Shown here one piece after another: positions 5,590 to 23,628 of a stretch of DNA of 27,457 nucleotides (the stretch's first letter is position 1; the number at the start of each line of letters is the position of its first letter). The stretch is from a virus: IMG/VR virus record IMGVR_UViG_3300021599_000280, positions 1-27,457 of that record. One strand, written 5' to 3'. Made by a program: the position numbers and the translations under genes. The notes under the pieces are model-generated. The model saw only the letters and a program-made list of their open reading frames with translations, was not told the DNA's origin and did not search any database.

Positions 5590-5796
5590 TTACTGCCGCC
5601 TTGATAGCATCTTCTGCCAATATGCTACAATGTATTTTAACTGGCGGTAGGGCTAGTTCTTCGGCGATTTCGGAGTTTTTAATTGATCCTGCTTCGTCGA
5701 TGTGCATTCCTTTGACCCATTCTGTAATGAGGCTCGAGCTCGCAATAGCCGATCCGCAGCCATACGTTTTAAATTTTGCATCTGTAATAATACCTG
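5561..5796 (-). CDS. iscU: IscU-type Fe-S scaffold, C-terminal part (frame broken)
   Basis: This frame carries the second half of IscU: TYGCGSAIASSSLITEWVKG with the second ligand Cys, and LPPVKIHCSILAEDAI with the third Cys preceded by the conserved Lys-Ile-His. It is separated from the N-terminal half only by the 34-bp tandem duplication at 5763-5830. With one copy removed the protein is 128 residues, the length of E. coli IscU, with cysteines at 37, 64 and 107. The last residues overlap the IscA gene. Confidence 0.85.
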
Positions 5797-5830
5797 TACG
5801 TTTTAAATTTTGCATCTGTAATAATACCTG
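5763..5830. repeat. 34-bp exact tandem duplication inside iscU
   Basis: Two identical adjacent copies lie at 5763-5796 and 5797-5830; each starts TACGTTTTAAATTTTGCATC and ends AATACCTG. Thirty-four is not a multiple of three, so the gene is shifted out of frame. Removing one copy restores a normal IscU. Thirty-four is twice the 17-bp unit length in dexA, but the two sequences are unrelated. Confidence 0.95.
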
Positions 5831-11451: not shown

Positions 11452-12102
11452 TTAATACTTTCCGCTAGCTAATACAATTTTACAAATGTGCTCTAATCGT
11501 TCAATGTGTTCATAGGCACGCCAGGGGCTTGTGTCAATAGCAACAACACCGTGCCCTTTGATTCCAACTATGTCATAGGCAATATTGCCCTCGTTGTCTA
11601 ATTGTAACATCTTATGACACTGATCCGCAAGCTCTTGGCTGATCGGAGGCACATCGCCTACATTTGGTGCTACTTTGGTATAGCGATTGAGTTCTGGAAA
11701 TGCATTACTAATAGTACTCAAATCAATTCCGGCATGCATAGCGGCAATACAATAGGTAGGATGAACGTGTACTACTACACGAACCTCACCTGTATGTTGT
11801 CCCATTTCTCGTTGTAAACCAAAATGTAATGGCAGTTCCCCACTGGGCTTTAGGTTAGCACTAATGTCAGTATACTCTAATTCTTTAGTTGCATAATATC
11901 TAGTTGGTGGTTGACCCCAGTATCCTGTCTCAATGCCAATCTTCTTAAATTGATCTGGTTGTAGCGTCTGCTTACGTACACCACTAGGTGTAATGTAAAA
12001 ATGATCACGATCGTGATGACGAATACTTACATTGCCATCACGACTGGTAATCCAGTTACGCTTGTAAGCGTCTACCATTATGTCACATATAGTTTCTAAC
12101 AT
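11452..12102 (-). CDS. Class II aldolase/adducin-family protein
   Basis: A 216-residue zinc enzyme of the class II aldolase family (relatives: fuculose-phosphate aldolase, methylthioribulose-1-phosphate dehydratase). Active-site pieces are present and in order: SRDGNVSIR at the start (substrate phosphate loop), SGELPLHFGLQRE with the catalytic Glu, VVHVHPTYC with two zinc His, and IKGHGVVAID with the third zinc His. The metabolic reaction cannot be fixed from sequence. The gene overlaps the nrdA stop by one base, so it is expressed with the reductase. A sugar-phosphate aldolase could feed pentose or one-carbon metabolism; that is inference. Confidence 0.85.
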   Translation of the reverse strand: MLETICDIMVDAYKRNWITSRDGNVSIRHHDRDHFYITPSGVRKQTLQPDQFKKIGIETGYWGQPPTRYYATKELEYTDISANLKPSGELPLHFGLQREMGQHTGEVRVVVHVHPTYCIAAMHAGIDLSTISNAFPELNRYTKVAPNVGDVPPISQELADQCHKMLQLDNEGNIAYDIVGIKGHGVVAIDTSPWRAYEHIERLEHICKIVLASGKY

Positions 12103-13448
12103 TACAGTTTACAAGACTCGCAGTCTTCCTCGTCTTCAAAGTTAATAGGTTCTAACATAGTTGGTGCATCTTCAGCAGTCATCTTACTACCTTGCTTGTT
12201 AATCAAACTATAGTAAAATGTTTTCAATCCCCAATAGTGTGCTTGCATCAAATTCTTAGCAATCAATGTAGTTGGTACTTTACGATCTGCCCAGTGTGCT
12301 GGATTGTAGAATGTGTTTGTTGAAATGCTTTGATCGATGTAGGCGGCAATAACAGCTGCCGTTTTAATGTAGCCATCACAGTCTTTCTGTTCCCACATGA
12401 GTTGATACTTGTTCTTCAACTTAGCATACTCAGGAACAACCTGTACAAATGATCCTGCTTTAGATTCTTTAACTGAAATCAAGCTCATAGGCATTTCAAT
12501 ACCATTGGTTGAGTTAATAACAACACTTGAGCTTTCTACAGGAGCCACTGCCATCTGTGTAGCATTACGAACACCGTGTTCTTTCATGTTAGTGCGTAGT
12601 GTTTCCCAATCAAGTTCTGGAGCAAAGTCTGCAAGTTCATTAACACCTTTAGCACGTAGTTCCCAAGGAAAGGTGCCTTGTCCATAACGTGTCTTATCAC
12701 TACCTTCACACTTGCCGCGTTCTTTAGCTAGCTCAACACTAGCTTCTGTTAGATAGTAACTTTGATGTTCCATCCATGATTTAACTTCAGATAACGAATC
12801 TTTCTCACCATACTTAAGACTGCGTTTAGCATGCCAGTATGCTAGGTTAGTAATGCCAATGCCTAATGGACGAATTTCGTCATTGCTCAACTTAGACTGG
12901 ATAGAAAGAAAATCTTGGTAATCGAGTATATTGTTAAGACTACGGTGAAGGATACGGCAAGCCCTACGCATATCTTCTGGGTTGCGGAAAGCTCCCCAGT
13001 TGATTGAGCCCAGTGTACATAAAGCAATACGACCGGTATCATCATCCAGACGCTTAAAAGACTTAGTAGGTAATAGGATTTCACAGCATAAGTTACTCTG
13101 GTAAATTGTATGGTACTCTGGGTCAAACGGACCCTGGTTCATTACATTGTCAATGAACACTAGATAGATACGTCCTGTATCAGTACGTTCTTTCAGTATG
13201 CCCGACTTGAATACTTCTTCAGCGGACATGGTTTTCTTACGTAAGCCCGGAGTCCTTTCGTACTTTACGTAAAGCTCTTCGAAGCGTTCTGTGTTTTGAT
13301 AGAACGCTTCATACAAGTCAGGTACTTCATTTGGATCAAAGAATGTTATTTGTTCTTTGTTTTTAAATCGTCTCCAGAAGAAAGCACTAAGCACAACCCC
13401 ATAATCCATATGACGGACTCGGGTTTCTTCTGTTCCTTGGTTGTTCTT
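12102..13448 (-). CDS. nrdA: Ribonucleotide reductase class I, alpha subunit, C-terminal part (frame broken)
   Basis: In this frame the protein resumes KNNQGTEETRVRHMDYGV and runs to the end (448 residues). The radical-site strand SNLCCEI carries the thiyl Cys (E. coli Cys439 equivalent) with its Asn and Glu partners, ALCTLGSIN carries the second redox Cys, and FYYSLI the Tyr pair of the radical pathway. The C-terminal tail ends CESCKL, the swinging dithiol. Codons upstream of 13448 in this frame are not real. The segment joining it to the N-terminal part, about seven residues after PIWH, is missing. Confidence 0.9.
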   Translation of the reverse strand, partial: KNNQGTEETRVRHMDYGVVLSAFFWRRFKNKEQITFFDPNEVPDLYEAFYQNTERFEELYVKYERTPGLRKKTMSAEEVFKSGILKERTDTGRIYLVFIDNVMNQGPFDPEYHTIYQSNLCCEILLPTKSFKRLDDDTGRIALCTLGSINWGAFRNPEDMRRACRILHRSLNNILDYQDFLSIQSKLSNDEIRPLGIGITNLAYWHAKRSLKYGEKDSLSEVKSWMEHQSYYLTEASVELAKERGKCEGSDKTRYGQGTFPWELRAKGVNELADFAPELDWETLRTNMKEHGVRNATQMAVAPVESSSVVINSTNGIEMPMSLISVKESKAGSFVQVVPEYAKLKNKYQLMWEQKDCDGYIKTAAVIAAYIDQSISTNTFYNPAHWADRKVPTTLIAKNLMQAHYWGLKTFYYSLINKQGSKMTAEDAPTMLEPINFEDEEDCESCKL

Positions 13449-14403
13449 ACTGATGATGCCAAATAGGATAAAAAACAGTAGCACTTGCATTACGAATACC
13501 TCCTTGTGAACATGATCGTAAATCACCGAACCATTTTTTCAGGAAAGGTATCATACCTGTGTGCATAATTTCGCCGCCCCTAATGGGACTACCTAATGGA
13601 CGTAGACGTCCAATCTCTAGACCAATGCCAGCACGTTTGCTGGCATACTTAGCCATCATTTCCCCAGAGGCAAAAATAGAGTCGAGATCGTCATCGCTAC
13701 GAATAAGAACACAGCTACTAAACTGTTTGGTAGGAGTACCAAGGCCAGCGAGTACAGGAGTAGCAAGAGTGAAAAGACCATCACTGGCGGCCGTATAATA
13801 CTCTTTGATAAATCGCATACGAGCCGTGTTAGGCTCTTCCTTATGGAAAACAGTTGCGGCTGCAACCATGTAACGAATTTGAGGAGTTTCATAAGTTTCC
13901 TTAGTGGCACGATTCTTTACAAGATACTTTTCAATTAACTGTTCAATAGCGGCATACCCATACTGTTCATCTTTTTCGTGATCCAGCATGTCATTCATCT
14001 TGTTCCAGTCTTCTTCACTGTACCAATCTAATAGCTCACTAGTATACAAGCCAGTAGCCACATTAGTCTTTACAATGTCGTAAAGGTGGGGAGGCTCGTA
14101 GGCGCCATAAACATCCTTACGCAACATACTTAAACGTTGCTTGCCTGCTACATATTGGTAATTTACATGTCCCACATCGGGATTATGTTCTACATCGATT
14201 AGATTAACAATAGCACGTAGCGTAATCTCATCTACTTCTCTAGTAGTAATACCGTCGTAGAAATGAGGCTGTGCTTTGATTTCAATCATTGACTGACTAA
14301 CATCTGCAATCCCTTTACATACTTTTGCAATCTGTGTCTGCCACTTTTCGATCATTAGTGGTTCTTTTTTTCCGTCTCTTTTGATTACAGTTATTGTTGT
14401 CAT
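13447..14403 (-). CDS. nrdA: Ribonucleotide reductase class I, alpha subunit, N-terminal part (frame broken)
   Basis: N-terminal 318 residues of NrdA. An ATP-cone-type start (ITVIKRDGKKEPL, residues 3-15) is followed by the conserved DVGHVNYQYVAGKQR region, FSSCVLI with the first redox Cys (Cys231), and the loop region PIRGGEIMHTGMIPFLK and SCSQGGIRNASATVFYPIWH. It stops at an in-frame TAA two residues after PIWH. The downstream frame continues the protein; comparison with E. coli NrdA indicates a loss of about 20 or 23 bases here (length of the form 3n+2). Joined, the enzyme would be about 774 residues, the family size. Confidence 0.9.
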   Translation of the reverse strand: MTTITVIKRDGKKEPLMIEKWQTQIAKVCKGIADVSQSMIEIKAQPHFYDGITTREVDEITLRAIVNLIDVEHNPDVGHVNYQYVAGKQRLSMLRKDVYGAYEPPHLYDIVKTNVATGLYTSELLDWYSEEDWNKMNDMLDHEKDEQYGYAAIEQLIEKYLVKNRATKETYETPQIRYMVAAATVFHKEEPNTARMRFIKEYYTAASDGLFTLATPVLAGLGTPTKQFSSCVLIRSDDDLDSIFASGEMMAKYASKRAGIGLEIGRLRPLGSPIRGGEIMHTGMIPFLKKWFGDLRSCSQGGIRNASATVFYPIWHHQ

Positions 14404-16450: not shown

Positions 16451-16456
16451 TATTTA
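16451..16456 (-). promoter_or_regulatory. Late-promoter-like box upstream of tail fibre
   Basis: TAAATA in the context GCTAAATATCG, 21 bases before the tail fibre ATG, overlapping the end of the nuclease gene. A late box is expected before a structural gene. Confidence 0.45.
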
Positions 16457-17048
16457 GCTGTTCAAACGGTAGTACTGCTCCACTCGCTTGCACCATTCTT
16501 CTGTCCAGTAGTCAAAGTCCTTGGGTTCTAGGATAAACTCCTGATATTCATAGTCTTTGCTACACATTAGGATAACACCCTTACGGATATTAGTTCCATG
16601 TACTTCGTTATGTGCTAAAGCATAGGCTGTTAGCTGTAGGAAGTAATCACTAATGTACTCTAGTTTCTTGGGCTTGTTAGTCTGCTTAAAGTCTAGGATG
16701 CTTTCGTCACCGTTGTGTACACCTACACAGTCAGTAGTACCCGCATATAGTTCGGGGAAGTACAAGGGTACTTCTGATCCCCACACTTCAGTTACATTAC
16801 ACATGCCCTTTTCAATCACAATCTTTGCCATCTTCTGGCTTTGTTGTGCAAATGGATTAGTAATTGCTTCGTTCATGGGCTCACCTTTGACATAGTCCTC
16901 TAGGAACTTGTGCATACGTGTGCCTCGATTGGCTGCTTCCGTAGTAATCTCTTGTGCCTTCTTTTCACCTACTGCTTTGCGCCAGTTGGCTAATGCTATG
17001 CGGCTTTCTTCTGGTTTAGTTTTATCCAGTACTGTCGTGACACTAGGG
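16454..17048 (-). CDS. PD-(D/E)XK-type nuclease, C-terminal part (frame broken)
   Basis: This frame holds the catalytic part of a RecB-like/PD-(D/E)XK nuclease. RGTRMHKFLEDYVKG resembles the helix preceding the core, LYAGTTDCVGV supplies the first acidic residue, ESILDFKQTNKPK gives the D-x-K pair, and DYFLQLTAYALAHNE is the conserved Gln/Tyr motif after the core. In aquatic T4-like phages such proteins are annotated as exonucleases, probably acting in recombination or host DNA degradation. The frame is continuous with the N-terminal part once one copy of the 82-bp duplication is removed, giving a protein of about 230 residues. Confidence 0.85.
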
Positions 17049-17130
17049 ACCTACTGCTTTGCGCCAGTTGGCTAATGCTATGCGGCTTTCTTCTGGTTTA
17101 GTTTTATCCAGTACTGTCGTGACACTAGGG
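16967..17130. repeat. 82-bp exact tandem duplication inside the nuclease gene
   Basis: Copies at 16967-17048 and 17049-17130 are identical; each opens ACCTACTGCTTTGCGCCAG and closes GACACTAGGG. Two further bases (ac) after the second copy also match. Eighty-two is not a multiple of three, so the nuclease frame is broken in the second copy. One copy alone gives a continuous protein. Confidence 0.95.
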
Positions 17131-17225
17131 ACTTTATGCCCTTGTGGTGTAGCGTATAAACGCTTACCGGAGCTGTCGTCCCTAGAGAGTTTTTCGTATT
17201 TAAATTTGTTTATTAGTAGGGTCAT
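17043..17225 (-). CDS. PD-(D/E)XK-type nuclease, N-terminal part (frame broken)
   Basis: The first 60 residues, including ATPQGHKVPSVTTVLDKTKP (a segment usual at the N-terminus of this phage nuclease group) and IALANWRKAVG. The last residues before the stop arise from reading across the 82-bp duplication. The ATG at 17225 has no Shine-Dalgarno sequence, and a perfect sigma-70 promoter ends only five bases before it, so the message may be leaderless. Confidence 0.8.
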   Translation of the reverse strand: MTLLINKFKYEKLSRDDSSGKRLYATPQGHKVPSVTTVLDKTKPEESRIALANWRKAVGP

Positions 17226-17230
17226 GATAC

Positions 17231-17259
17231 ATTATATAGTATCTAGACCCATATGTCAA
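17231..17259 (-). promoter_or_regulatory. Perfect consensus sigma-70 promoter
   Basis: TTGACA (17259-17254), exactly 17 bp, then TATAAT (17236-17231) on the minus strand, matching the bacterial consensus at every base. It drives the nuclease gene, whose ATG follows the -10 box by five bases. Such a strong site suggests immediate-early transcription by unmodified host polymerase. Confidence 0.85.
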
Positions 17260-17591
17260 CCAGGTTGTTTGAGCGATTTAGCCGCTGCTCTACTTGCTGA
17301 AGTGTCCAAACTTGTAGTACTCTTATCTGAACGGGTAGCTTCTGGTTTTTCTTTAGTTTTAAGAGTTAATCCTCGGCCGTCGAACTGATCAACCATGTTT
17401 TTTAATTGCGGTAAACTATCAAATTGTTTTTTAAATGTTTCATAGTCCATTTGACTTCCTGAAACATTGCGTAGCATATTAGAGACAGCGTCCCAGCTGT
17501 ATTGACCTGAGACGCCTTTTGAATCTGCTCTAGACTTTAGAGCATTAAGGACGCGGATAAGTGTACCCGCATCTTCATTTATTTTTTTTTT
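17256..17591 (-). CDS. Reading frame without its own start, probable slippage product
   Basis: This frame is open from just after a TAG at 17595-17597 to a stop at 17256. It has coding-like sequence from the first codon: INEDAGTLIRVLNALKSRAD, then GQYSWDAVSNMLRN, a central region, and a Lys/Ser-rich tail ending SLKQPG. No ATG, GTG or TTG exists before the ATG at 17477, which lies 35 codons into the coherent sequence. It begins inside a run of ten A that ends the upstream gene. A one-base slip (-1 frameshift, or an extra A in the transcript) would join it in frame to the upstream protein. No family is recognised. Confidence 0.65.
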   Translation of the reverse strand, partial: KKKINEDAGTLIRVLNALKSRADSKGVSGQYSWDAVSNMLRNVSGSQMDYETFKKQFDSLPQLKNMVDQFDGRGLTLKTKEKPEATRSDKSTTSLDTSASRAAAKSLKQPG

Positions 17592-18472
17592 GAACTAAGA
17601 ATTGTAGCTAGTTTGCGGCTATACTGTACAGTTTCGCGCATTTCACGGCCTGCTGCCTCTTCGCCACCTGCTGCTGGAGCTGCGGCTGCAAACTCATCGC
17701 CAGTTGGCATTTGTTCTGCACCCATTTCTAATCCTGGCTCGCTGCCTGGCATGCCTGTTGGACCTTCTTCGCCTGTTAGAATAGCAACTGCCTGGGCTAG
17801 GGTTGTACGTGTTGATTCTAAACATGTATATAATTCTTCTAATGCCGGTTTAACTTGGCCAGAGAATTGAGTACTGATATTGCTGCCTAATTCATCTCTT
17901 ATAGAGTCTACTAATTCTAACATGGTTTCTGATTTTAATGATGCAGTGTCCTCTAGCCAACCAGTGACTTTATCTACCATATCACGTGCGCTCATGATTA
18001 ACGCAGCTTTTTCTTCTTCGCCTTCTGTTAGTGTTCTTTCACTTAATACACCACGTAATACTTGCATTGCTTCTTCAATGCTTTCTTTCTTAGCCATTTT
18101 AGTGGCTGTGGCATGCATTACTTCGTCGCCTTTGTCGCCGTAACGTTTTTTAAATTCGCCTGACTTCTTCTTCATGCCTTTAACAAACTTTTCTTTCTTT
18201 GACTCTTCGCCTGGACTTAGAGTACGCTCTGAAATAGCTTGTGTTATTACATCTAGTAATGCACGGTCACGTTGATAGCTGTTGCTTTCGTAAACTGCAT
18301 CATAGTTTCTGCTGGTTTCAAATTCAGCTAATTCAGTTGTAATTTTATCACGAGCTGCTTGTAGTTGTTCCATAGTGAAACTATCTACATTTAATTTGTA
18401 GCCAAATTTCTTAGCAAGACTCTCGTTAAGTGCTTTGCTACTCTTTGGATGTGAAAGTTCGTTAATCTGCAT
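17579..18472 (-). CDS. Unknown virion-like protein with NE-motif N-terminus (297 aa)
   Basis: Begins MQINEL, one of five proteins in the window with this type of start. Mostly helical, with a positively charged domain near residues 97-130 (FKKRYGDKGDEVMHATATKM) and two similar segments, SERTLSPGEESKKEK (82-96) and SERTLTEGEEEKAAL (about 144-158), suggesting an internal duplication. The C-terminus is low-complexity Gly/Ala/Pro/Glu and ends SSKKK at an A10 run. No enzyme motif is seen. A head or scaffold-associated role is possible from the N-terminal peptide. A GATAAATAAC box lies 28 bases upstream of the ATG. Confidence 0.75.
   Translation of the reverse strand: MQINELSHPKSSKALNESLAKKFGYKLNVDSFTMEQLQAARDKITTELAEFETSRNYDAVYESNSYQRDRALLDVITQAISERTLSPGEESKKEKFVKGMKKKSGEFKKRYGDKGDEVMHATATKMAKKESIEEAMQVLRGVLSERTLTEGEEEKAALIMSARDMVDKVTGWLEDTASLKSETMLELVDSIRDELGSNISTQFSGQVKPALEELYTCLESTRTTLAQAVAILTGEEGPTGMPGSEPGLEMGAEQMPTGDEFAAAAPAAGGEEAAGREMRETVQYSRKLATILSSKKK
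17582..17591 (-). promoter_or_regulatory. A10 slippery run at gene end
   Basis: Ten consecutive A on the minus strand (ten T on plus) directly before the TAA of the 297-residue gene. The context TCA AAA AAA AAA TAA permits -1 ribosomal slippage, and runs of nine or more A are also known sites for transcriptional slippage. Adding one A would fuse the two reading frames. Confidence 0.6.
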
Positions 18473-18506: not shown

Positions 18507-18938
18507 TCAAAAGTTTGCTTTAAACATTAAAGAAATTTGTTCCTTGTAACGTTTAGCTCTGTGCTCTGCTTGTTCCCAACGCCACATAAAAATGTCACGT
18601 TTGTCAAGATCTTTTGCGTGTTCATATCTATATTTAAAAAAACTAGCATCATTACTGTTGTTCCAGTATTGTGTATCTAGAGATTTTATTTCATTGTATC
18701 TATTAAAGTTAGTTTGATCATAGAATTTAGCTGCTAATGTAGCTGTTGTTTTAATTCTAAACTGATCAATAACATCACCATCTTGTAATCTAACAGTCCA
18801 CATTCCTTGGGTGTTTTGTTTGATTCTGTATCGTTTATAAACAATACTTTTATCAGGTAAAACAGCCAATGGTATTTTCTTTTTAAACTCTTCTTCTAAA
18901 AAAGTTTCTAGTTGTTTAGCTTGTCGTTTAAAGTTCAT
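18507..18938 (-). CDS. Hypothetical basic protein (143 aa)
   Basis: Starts MNFKRQAKQLETFLEEEFKK, an amphipathic helix. The middle has a beta-like segment (YKRYRIKQNTQGMWTVRLQD, near 34-53) and the C-terminal half is helical and rich in Arg, Lys, Trp and Tyr (DIFMWRWEQAEHRAKRYKEQ). No family is recognised. The ATG at 18938 overlaps the previous gene by 11 bases. It belongs to the co-transcribed chain running from the nucleotidyltransferase at 20875 down to the 297-residue gene. Confidence 0.65.
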   Translation of the reverse strand: MNFKRQAKQLETFLEEEFKKKIPLAVLPDKSIVYKRYRIKQNTQGMWTVRLQDGDVIDQFRIKTTATLAAKFYDQTNFNRYNEIKSLDTQYWNNSNDASFFKYRYEHAKDLDKRDIFMWRWEQAEHRAKRYKEQISLMFKANF

Positions 18939-19128
18939 TAGCAATTACTCGAGGATTAATGTCTCCTATCTTAATTACCAAACTTTTACGTATAAGACCT
19001 TCAATTGTGAATTGATCACGCTCACTAAAACTATGTAGTGGACGAGCATGTGTTAGTTGTTCTAACATCTGCTTTTCAGTGTTTGAAGTATAGATTTCAA
19101 ACTCTTTGACTAATTCATTTATTTTCAT
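18928..19128 (-). CDS. Small protein with NE-motif N-terminus (66 aa)
   Basis: Begins MKINELVKEF, matching the shared N-terminal peptide of neighbouring proteins. The remainder is a short charged sequence with a helix (EKQMLEQLTHA) and a strand-like segment (SLVIKIGDINPRVI). No family is recognised. The ATG overlaps the TGA of the previous gene. Confidence 0.65.
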   Translation of the reverse strand: MKINELVKEFEIYTSNTEKQMLEQLTHARPLHSFSERDQFTIEGLIRKSLVIKIGDINPRVIANEL

Positions 19129-20159
19129 CTTCTGCTCAACATTCTTCTTAGAAGGCTAATAATTTCATTGTGTTCGCCGTGATCAGAGTTAGCTCTTCCT
19201 CCGTGTATAGGACTAGTGCTGTCATTTGGGGGAGGATCTAACTCGTTAAGCACTGAATTTTCTGTGCTAACGACTGCTGTACCAGCTTTGAGTTCATCCG
19301 TATCTGGAGTGTCCATTGACATTTTGCCGTCTGCTGTTGGTTTCAATGCAGTACTATCAACTTCCATTGACGATCCGTCAGCTTTAGTTAACGTTGCTTT
19401 TTTAGTAGCAGGATCAACTTTGGTAATCTTGCCTACTTCAGCACCCATAGCTTCATCAGTGGATCTATTGTCAGCATCTGCTTTGGCTCTGGCTTGTTCT
19501 CTACTAGGACTGTACCCTCGAGCCCTTGCTTCTTGTTCTTGATTAGGATAGACAGTTACTTTAAACATTTTACCATCTTTGACAATGTACCATTCTGATG
19601 GATCTAGATCGTGTCTTTCATCATTAGCACCACCGTCATCTTGATATGCTTGTGATTGACGTTTGCCCATGCCACTTATACTAGACTGGTAATCTCTATC
19701 GTATGCTGACGAACTGCCGCGTCTACGATAAAGTGCCTCTTGCTCAATATCCTCACGTTCCATACGATCATTATAATCGTTGGCCATTTGTTCTTTCTTG
19801 TCTAGATAGTTTTGATATCTCTGTTGATCACGCTCAGTAGCATCTGGACCTTCTGCTCTTGCCTTTAGGTCAGCTGCATGTGATTGATCTAACTTACGAC
19901 GATGTTCTGCGCTGGCTGAATTAGGATTATACCCTTCGGCCATTTCAGGAGCTGTTTTGTGTTTCTGTCCACGAACAGATTGACTAGCTTTCTTAGCATC
20001 TTTATGAGCACCAGCAGCGCCGCCACCAATAGCAGCCGAAGCATTCTTAGCTACCGGATTAGTAGCCTTGGGTGGTTCAATGTGAGTCTTAGGCTTTGCG
20101 TTATACTTAACAGCTCTTACACCTTTCTTGTGTTCGTGGATAATTTCATTTCTTTTCAT
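19125..20159 (-). CDS. Largely disordered NE-motif protein (344 aa)
   Basis: Begins MKRNEIIHEHKKG. The chain is highly charged and poor in large hydrophobics. There is a Gly/Ala segment followed by AHKDAKKA and a Lys/His stretch (residues about 42-70), then long Arg/Asp/Gln-rich regions (ERDQQRYQNYLDKKEQ). A small ordered domain near 190-220 reads DPSEWYIVKDGKMFKVTVYP, and a beta-repeat region follows (KITKVDPATKKATLTKADGS). The C-terminus ends LLRRMLSRR. No catalytic motif is visible. The composition fits a structural or internal-head protein better than an enzyme; this is inference. Confidence 0.7.
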   Translation of the reverse strand: MKRNEIIHEHKKGVRAVKYNAKPKTHIEPPKATNPVAKNASAAIGGGAAGAHKDAKKASQSVRGQKHKTAPEMAEGYNPNSASAEHRRKLDQSHAADLKARAEGPDATERDQQRYQNYLDKKEQMANDYNDRMEREDIEQEALYRRRGSSSAYDRDYQSSISGMGKRQSQAYQDDGGANDERHDLDPSEWYIVKDGKMFKVTVYPNQEQEARARGYSPSREQARAKADADNRSTDEAMGAEVGKITKVDPATKKATLTKADGSSMEVDSTALKPTADGKMSMDTPDTDELKAGTAVVSTENSVLNELDPPPNDSTSPIHGGRANSDHGEHNEIISLLRRMLSRR

Positions 20160-22195: not shown

Positions 22196-23344
22196 TTACT
22201 TCGGAGTCCAGCGTTTACGGGGCACTAGTTTGACATTTCCAAACTGTTTACCTGCTGGTGCATATCGTACACGCCCTTCGCCCTGTGTATCCCAGATTTC
22301 GCCCTGTCCTTGCTCTACTTGATCGATTACTTTGTCCTTAAGACTCATAATACGTCCAACTAGTCCAAAGATAGCATCTAGTGCATTAGCATGTTGTTGT
22401 GCAAGAGCTTCGATTTTAGTTTGCTTGGGTAGACTAACTTTACTGCTCTTTAACCAAGTGAAGAAGTCTTGAGTGCCTATTTGATCTAAATTCTTAGCCT
22501 TGGCGCTTTGATTTACATAGGTATACAAAATGTTTTTAAGATCACCTAAACCACTAGTTCCTTGTATGAATCCGTCAATGGCTGCTGAGTGTTGACTTAG
22601 GTACTGTTCTACTGCATCAATAGCACTAGTATCAAGGGCTACAGGATTGCTGTTATATACCGGCCCTTGCACAATCAATGCAGGGTTAGTATTAAACATA
22701 CTAAAGTCATCCATGGGCTTCTGTTCACTATCGTCCATGCCAAACTCTGGAAAGTAAGCATGTCCAACAACCATAACTTGCGCACGACTAATCTGCTGCC
22801 CCAGTGGGCTAGCAGCCTTAACGTGGTAACATGTTTGACTATTAGGATTAGGGCAAAATGTATATACTCCGTTAGCATCTACTTTAGGTTGCTGTAAGAA
22901 CAGACCATCTGCATAAACATATCCAACAAACGTTTTTGGTGTAGCTGCATCAAACAAGGAATATAATCCAGCAAATTGCTTGCCAAATGCTTGTCGCTGT
23001 TGTGCTTGCTCAGGAGTCTTTGGATTGCCACTTTTATTAACAATAAAGTCGTAGACATCTTTAGGATTATCACTAGCCGCACCACGACTCCAACCATTAT
23101 GTCCTGCTAAGATTAGTGGACCACCTTTCTCTGCACGGCCCCAATAGATTTGAGGATTCCCATCCCACTTCATGCGAATAGTTTTACTACCTTCAGCAGT
23201 GGCTATTTCTTTTAAGTGTTCCAATGCTTCCATTGTACCTTTACTGCCGTGGAAGAATACTAGATCTTCTAAGTGATTAAAAGCTCGACCTAGTTTTTTT
23301 GTAGCAGCTTCTTCTGCTTCTTTTAAGAATTCATTTGCTCTCAT
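22196..23344 (-). CDS. Putative covalent nucleotidyltransferase (KxDG ligase-like), DUF6267-like
   Basis: A 382-residue protein. MKWDGNPQIYWGR contains K-x-D-G (Lys59, Asp61, Gly62), motif I of DNA/RNA ligases and capping enzymes, where Lys takes the AMP or GMP. TFVGYVYADGLF (138-149) sits where motif III would be, GEGRVRY (Glu356) resembles motif IV and VKLVPRK (Lys372) motif V. The order is right, but motif spacing is longer than in known ligases. I think this is the family annotated in phages as DUF6267; that is from memory. N-terminus MRANEFLKEA resembles a T4 capsid-targeting peptide. It overlaps the gene upstream by ATGA. Confidence 0.7.
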   Translation of the reverse strand: MRANEFLKEAEEAATKKLGRAFNHLEDLVFFHGSKGTMEALEHLKEIATAEGSKTIRMKWDGNPQIYWGRAEKGGPLILAGHNGWSRGAASDNPKDVYDFIVNKSGNPKTPEQAQQRQAFGKQFAGLYSLFDAATPKTFVGYVYADGLFLQQPKVDANGVYTFCPNPNSQTCYHVKAASPLGQQISRAQVMVVGHAYFPEFGMDDSEQKPMDDFSMFNTNPALIVQGPVYNSNPVALDTSAIDAVEQYLSQHSAAIDGFIQGTSGLGDLKNILYTYVNQSAKAKNLDQIGTQDFFTWLKSSKVSLPKQTKIEALAQQHANALDAIFGLVGRIMSLKDKVIDQVEQGQGEIWDTQGEGRVRYAPAGKQFGNVKLVPRKRWTPK

Positions 23345-23628
23345 TCACAATTCCATCGACGCAGAGCAAGTGCTTTTGGAGTAGGTTTGCCATTAGGTTT
23401 TTTCATAGGACCTTTGTTACCACTCATACGGGCACAGAAACTCTTACGGCGTTTAGCATCTTTGCTGCCTGCTTTGAGTTTACTCGGTTTGGTAGTAACC
23501 GCAGTCTTTAATTTGCTGCCTGGATTCTCACGACGATATGCATTGACAGCTTTTTGACTTAGTCCGTCTGTCTTGTCTTGCTTATTGACTTTGTTCCAGT
23601 CTTCGGAAATGATTTCGTTTATTTTCAT
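23341..23628 (-). CDS. Small basic conserved protein with NE-motif N-terminus (95 aa)
   Basis: Begins MKINEIISED. The rest is strongly basic: AYRRENPGSKLKTAV, then KDAKRRKSFCARMSGNKG, a Pro/Lys linker and ALRRWNCE. The RRENPGSKLKTAV and KRRKSFCARM blocks recur in proteins of aquatic phages annotated as DUF6321-like (from memory). Charge and size suggest nucleic-acid binding. It is coupled on both sides by ATGA overlaps to the two transferase-like genes, so the three are translated together. Confidence 0.75.
   Translation of the reverse strand: MKINEIISEDWNKVNKQDKTDGLSQKAVNAYRRENPGSKLKTAVTTKPSKLKAGSKDAKRRKSFCARMSGNKGPMKKPNGKPTPKALALRRWNCE

Follow-up and report, generated by a model that had tools for sequence, protein, structure and literature searches.

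A putative programmed −1 frameshift at a conserved A run in a virion-protein family of jumbo T4-like phages

We propose that a virion-protein gene on a viral contig is extended by a programmed −1 ribosomal frameshift, perhaps aided by RNA-polymerase slippage. Judging from sequence, we place the probability of this reading at roughly 0.8; the fusion product, the efficiency of the shift, and its mechanism are untested. The window (the whole stretch of DNA analyzed here) is a 27,457-base IMG/VR record. According to the proposal, most ribosomes would read SSKKK, stop, and yield a 297-aa protein. A fraction, held in place by a stem-loop that starts 8 nt further on, would slip back one base at A_AAA_AAA or A_AAA_AAG beside the stop codon and go on in the −1 frame, adding 108 aa at the C terminus for a total of 405 aa. 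The constant run of nine A's (A9) may contribute some RNA-polymerase slippage, which would lead to the same product. That the fusion is made, in what proportion, and that both forms enter the virion are inferred.

Results

Junction of the Two Reading Frames

The features of the locus, all on the minus strand, are as follows.

17579..18472, minus strand: upstream (N) ORF, 297 codons, virion-protein homologue, starting MQINELSHPKSSK and ending SSKKK-stop
17582..17591, minus strand: A10 slippery run, with the heptamer A_AAA_AAA in the 0 frame at 17588–17582 (A_AAA_AAG in most relatives)
17579..17581, minus strand: 0-frame stop codon TAA, immediately 3′ of the slippery heptamer
17565..17573, minus strand: 5′ arm of the predicted stem-loop, GATGCGGGT, after an 8-nt spacer from the heptamer
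17550..17558, minus strand: 3′ arm of the predicted stem-loop, ATCCGCGTC, pairing with the 5′ arm
17256..17582, minus strand: C ORF in the −1 frame, 108 codons plus stop counted from the first post-slip codon ATA, predicted winged-helix-like domain
16454..17225, minus strand: exonuclease gene, directly downstream, broken by an 82-nt tandem duplication

The N ORF ends in TCA AAA AAA AAA TAA, as a preliminary description of this DNA had read it. That description also had the −1 frame opening inside the A10 and running for 110 codons. The long frame, open at the A run, is real, but it begins 3 nt ahead of the A10, with a TTC (17594–17592) right behind a TAG, and it counts 108 codons from the post-slip ATA (17582–17580) to the stop at 17258–17256. 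The open overlap of the two frames is 13 nt, essentially the A run alone. Slippage would thus append 108 residues (INEDAGTLIRVL...SLKQPG) for a predicted fusion length of 405 aa, with the expected junction peptide SSKKKINEDAGTLIR in the window and SKKKVNEDADTLIR in relatives. The C frame does lack ATG, GTG, and TTG for 35 codons, as first described, with the earliest such codon at position 17477.

The −1 frame evolves as a protein upstream of any start codon. Within the window’s clade, substitutions in the prestart segment fell on codon positions 1, 2, and 3 of this frame in the ratio 104/42/227, stem columns being excluded from the count, and the changed codons comprised 163 synonymous and 116 nonsynonymous cases. 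The preliminary description had already noted coherent sequence from the first codon of this frame.

Conservation Among Homologues

A first scan of viral contigs recovered 79 loci, and all 78 that were untruncated (78/78) end alike, with the second domain in the −1 frame. A profile scan found at least 589 relatives, and further scans brought the classified set to 319 homologous loci, which form 122 clusters when grouped at 90% nucleotide identity. Of the 312 loci where the C domain is detectable, 295 have it in the −1 frame, and it is kept as a protein family-wide. An in-frame heptamer A_AAA_AA(G/A/C), ending in G in 91 clusters, A in 11, and C in 5, is combined with an open −1 frame in 107 of 122 clusters, strong support for the suggestion that slippage links two frames of a virion protein. 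Because the same kind of junction recurs in 107 of 122 clusters and the frame evolves as a protein before any start, the −1 frame is far beyond chance. No start codon occurs within the first 15 C-frame codons in 53 of the first 71 clusters; some relatives have TAATG at the junction, where an ATG read in the C frame shares bases with the stop, and in three slip-site clusters a further C-frame start lies close by.

Among the 107 slip-site clusters, the A run measures nine in 95, ten in 8, eight in 3, and six in 1. The A8 lineages retain A_AAA_AAG, as does the single A6 cluster (L303), whose five contigs end GGA AAA AAG TCG TAA. Only this cluster is truly A6: two further candidates for short slip sites, L149 and L156 (A7/A6), were rejected on finding a primary A9 upstream in each. 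One locus (L161) was scored as lacking a slip site solely because its contig ends inside the C ORF. In a separate lineage of six contigs (L278, L280, L281, L283, L284, and L343), the N ORF ends in an A10 or A11 whose register would call for a −2 or +1 shift, and this register is kept in both of two variants, TCC plus A10 and TCA plus A10. A change in shift direction is possible in this lineage, as is an action of polymerase slippage.

The stem-loop predicted downstream of the heptamer has a 9-bp stem and a 6-nt loop (window 17573–17550). RNAalifold detected the stem unaided in an alignment of 29 sequences, with compensatory changes in seven of nine pairs. Once the structure was fixed, pairing held in 98.1% of cells, and 17 cells had changed on both sides against 3.8 expected, values reached by 0 of 500 shuffles; sliding the stem partner by one to three columns lowered pairing to 30–43%. 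For 30 members of the window’s clade, folding gave a mean z of −4.3 relative to versions encoding the same protein with synonymous codons. A second group, with stem sequences unrelated to those of the window’s clade, gave a mean z of −3.0, and marine-type lineages gave about −1, mostly with no clear stem. Overall, the stem is significant in roughly 40% of all clusters.

Alternative Explanations

The window contains frame-breaking artifacts, so we had to consider whether a mistake in sequencing or assembly, or the decay of a pseudogene, had split one long ORF. A perfect 82-nt tandem duplication at 16967–17130 interrupts the exonuclease gene and is single copy in two near-identical contigs from other metagenomes (L002 and L003), and is probably an assembly artifact; a perfect 34-nt tandem duplication at 5763–5830 breaks an IscU/NifU-like gene that is an uninterrupted 128-aa ORF in a relative. 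The ribonucleotide reductase large subunit (12102–14403) likewise appears as two overlapping ORFs, against one 785-aa ORF in a relative. At the A run, however, L002 and L003 carry the same A10, and a −1 junction of the same kind recurs in over 100 divergent clusters, so that homologues already refute error and we give this explanation practically no credence. The preliminary description had named eleven A's in the reads as a sign of a simple fused gene; both near-identical contigs have ten, and in most relatives an A9 plus G keeps the register. It is also hard to see the C frame as a separate gene reached by reinitiation at the stop or by an internal start. The TAATG overlaps in some relatives speak for such a route, as does the separate translation of C in cultured jumbo phages, but the window’s first possible start, 35 codons in, would remove helix 1 and strand 1 of the structural model, most clusters surveyed have no early start, and coding constraint is already present in the prestart codons; moreover, the slip site would be unneeded. 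We consider this route very improbable.

The more serious contender is RNA-polymerase slippage, in which an A is added (or two are lost) on the A9 or A10 and the altered mRNA is then translated normally into the fusion, a route known from Thermus dnaX. On stretches of nine A or T, slippage by bacterial RNA polymerase is efficient in vivo (PMC5009743), and nine is the exact run length in 95 of 107 clusters (10 in another 8). The codon preceding the run is TCA or CCA in 99 of 108 cases, although TCA encodes only about 31% of the serines in these genes, and the L278 lineage has A10 or A11 in another register. Conservation of the A9 and of the preceding TCA/CCA goes beyond what a ribosomal heptamer needs, and this counts against our best explanation; for that reason, we keep polymerase slippage both as a rival and as a possible helper. 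The mostly stemless marine-type lineages, the register of the L278 lineage, and the extra C-frame starts in three slip-site clusters weigh against the best explanation as well. Yet the A6 and A8 lineages retain A_AAA_AAG, a G follows the A’s in 91 of 107 clusters in a fixed register (neither of which polymerase slippage requires), and covarying stem-loops stand at the spacing of ribosomal stimulators, about 5–9 nt. In E. coli, A_AAA_AAG, the dnaX site, is much more shift-prone than related heptamers (PMC5009743). Polymerase slippage as the sole mechanism thus seems unlikely to us; whether the ribosome or RNA polymerase slips is still undecided, with the evidence favoring the ribosome.

Lineages With Separate Genes

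In 13 clusters, the C domain has its own ATG, and none of these has a usable slip site. In one of them (L309), the N protein still ends in Lys-Lys-Lys, here spelled AAG AAG AAG and followed by TAAGGATTAGACATG. A separate C gene with its own ATG is also found in cultured jumbo phages (SCTP-2 genes 8 and 7, Atu_ph07, and Vibrio 2.275.O 025/026), and N and C are likewise separate as RaK2 ORF135/136, CBB_298/299, and 121Q 27/28. An exonuclease-type gene comes next in most of these cultured phages, as in the window. Among the named and jumbo phages searched, the fused arrangement turned up in no cultured phage.

The preliminary description had called for a comparison with homologues and held that a normal ATG before the C frame would refute programmed slippage. 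The comparison turned up both states, the slip-site junction in 107 of 122 clusters and a separate C with its own ATG in 13. The anticipated refutation did not follow: such ATGs occur, yet in lineages without the slip site (only three slip-site clusters have an extra start), and because the slip site is missing there, these lineages serve as a natural control. On a quick N-protein tree rooted with the cultured phages, all of which have separate genes, the arrangement switched at least five times by parsimony, with three switches forced by well-supported branches; some branches remain open, and the count is a minimum estimate. One slip-site locus (L318) is nested among relatives with a separate C, possibly reflecting regain of the slip site or gene exchange.

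Homology and Virion Function

Searches by tblastn of the window and marine versions against named phages returned nothing or short weak matches only, and profile searches of selected jumbo-phage records were needed to find cultured relatives. The N-protein profile matched proteins of SCTP-2, Atu_ph07, Vibrio 2.275.O, and RaK2 (E 1.7e-11 to 8.8e-7), and the N protein matched PHROG 14154, “virion structural protein.” The RaK2 match is ORF135, to which CBB_298 is 57% identical. Mass spectrometry has identified CBB_298 and CBB_299 in CBB virions with 10 and 2 unique peptides, respectively (PMC5259590, Table 4). The C extension aligned to CBB_299 over nearly the full length of the profile (E 0.0014 among 335 targets, hhalign probability 48%), whereas a search of the selected jumbo-phage records with just the C profile gave no match. 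Homology of the C domain to the separate gene of cultured phages is thus weak by sequence and rests partly on synteny, the order N, C, exonuclease being common to the window and several cultured jumbo phages. A relative of the window’s gene lies on a 364,554-base contig carrying a T4-type major capsid protein and portal, and we therefore assign the family to jumbo T4-like phages.

GTDB genomes yielded no relative, and Pfam and PDB sequence searches gave nothing convincing. A tail-sheath identity was discarded, since the Pfam model had no match in seven relatives. No tape-measure gene was identified; the neighbors are the exonuclease and genes without assignment.

AlphaFold modeled the N protein as helical (pLDDT 71) and the C domain as a compact helix-strand-helix-helix-strand-strand fold (pLDDT about 90 at residues 11–80). 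Matches of the C model in the PDB were mostly winged helices, all weak (best E 0.09), and the C domain is predicted to be winged-helix-like in topology only. That it binds nucleic acid is inferred.

The N-protein start, M(K/R/Q)xxE(L/I/F), is a look-alike of the T4-type capsid-targeting leader, whose role has been described (PMC3012670, PMC5694885), and separate C genes start M(R/K)xx(D/E)(L/I), resembling the N proteins’ starts. By analogy, we infer that the N-terminal MQINEL-type leader may act like a capsid-targeting sequence, which in the T4 type is a short N-terminal peptide that the prohead protease removes. If this is right, fusion would give the C domain use of the N protein’s leader, and we infer that the leader carries the C domain along. 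Many minus-strand ORFs of the window (18928–19128, 19125–20159, 22196–23344, and 23341–23628) begin M(K/R)(I/A/R)NE(L/I/F)xxE, much as the frameshift gene does, and may have in common a leader that targets the head. Judging from sequence starts alone, a related phage (contig G003, 45382–48695; L163) appears to encode ClpS-like, heme-oxygenase-like, and DnaK-like proteins.

Discussion

Several known systems resemble this locus in part. As with lambda gpG/gpGT, to which the preliminary description had likened it, a late phage gene would slip by −1 near the end of the first ORF, so that a minority of the product is longer at its C terminus by about 110–140 aa, and the direction of the shift can vary among lineages. 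The logic fits, but mature virions contain neither gpG nor gpGT (PMC5009743), whereas in CBB the counterparts of the present proteins belong to the virion (PMC5259590), evidence that is indirect and comes from relatives. The present family also differs in its downstream stem and in the separate second gene of cultured relatives, and no sequence similarity was found.

The heptamer and its register are those of E. coli dnaX and the IS3 family, whose frameshift sites have downstream stems, and a stem-loop stimulator is common to both. Here, however, the gene encodes a virion protein rather than a polymerase or transposase, the stop comes right after the heptamer, and the run is extended to A9. 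Thermus dnaX, with its transcriptional slippage, likewise has nine A’s at the frame change but not the structured downstream stem, fixed register, or A6 and A8 lineages seen here. Listeria phage PSA and T7 gene 10 each provide a structural protein in short and frameshift-extended forms; the PSA shift is +1, and both involve capsid or tail-shaft proteins, in contrast to the accessory virion protein here, and are unrelated as far as known. Closest are RaK2, CBB, and 121Q, where a homologous N gene, a C-like gene, and an exonuclease-type gene stand in this order (N and C being ORF135/ORF136, CBB_298/CBB_299, and 27/28, respectively), but as two genes, each with its own ATG and without a slip site.

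A frameshift in this N-protein family, or its exchange with a separate gene, was not found in the literature (open-access text only). The class of mechanism is known, and the fusion protein itself has not yet been seen. If the proposal holds, it adds a widespread programmed frameshift, with at least 589 relatives, to the virion proteins known from jumbo T4-like phages. T4 itself has no gpG/gpGT system and is cited as departing from the tail frameshift that is usual in phages (PMC5009743). Gene callers will miss about 108 virion-protein residues in these genomes. Since lineages with a start codon are natural controls, fusion at a fixed ratio can be compared directly with free expression. We would go further only tentatively, with the odds somewhat against us: a virion-protein pair may switch repeatedly between separate genes with their own starts and a single gene whose second part is accessible only through slipping at an A9 that suits ribosome and polymerase alike, with the slip acting as a stoichiometry dial that would bring a winged-helix domain into the head by means of the N protein’s leader.
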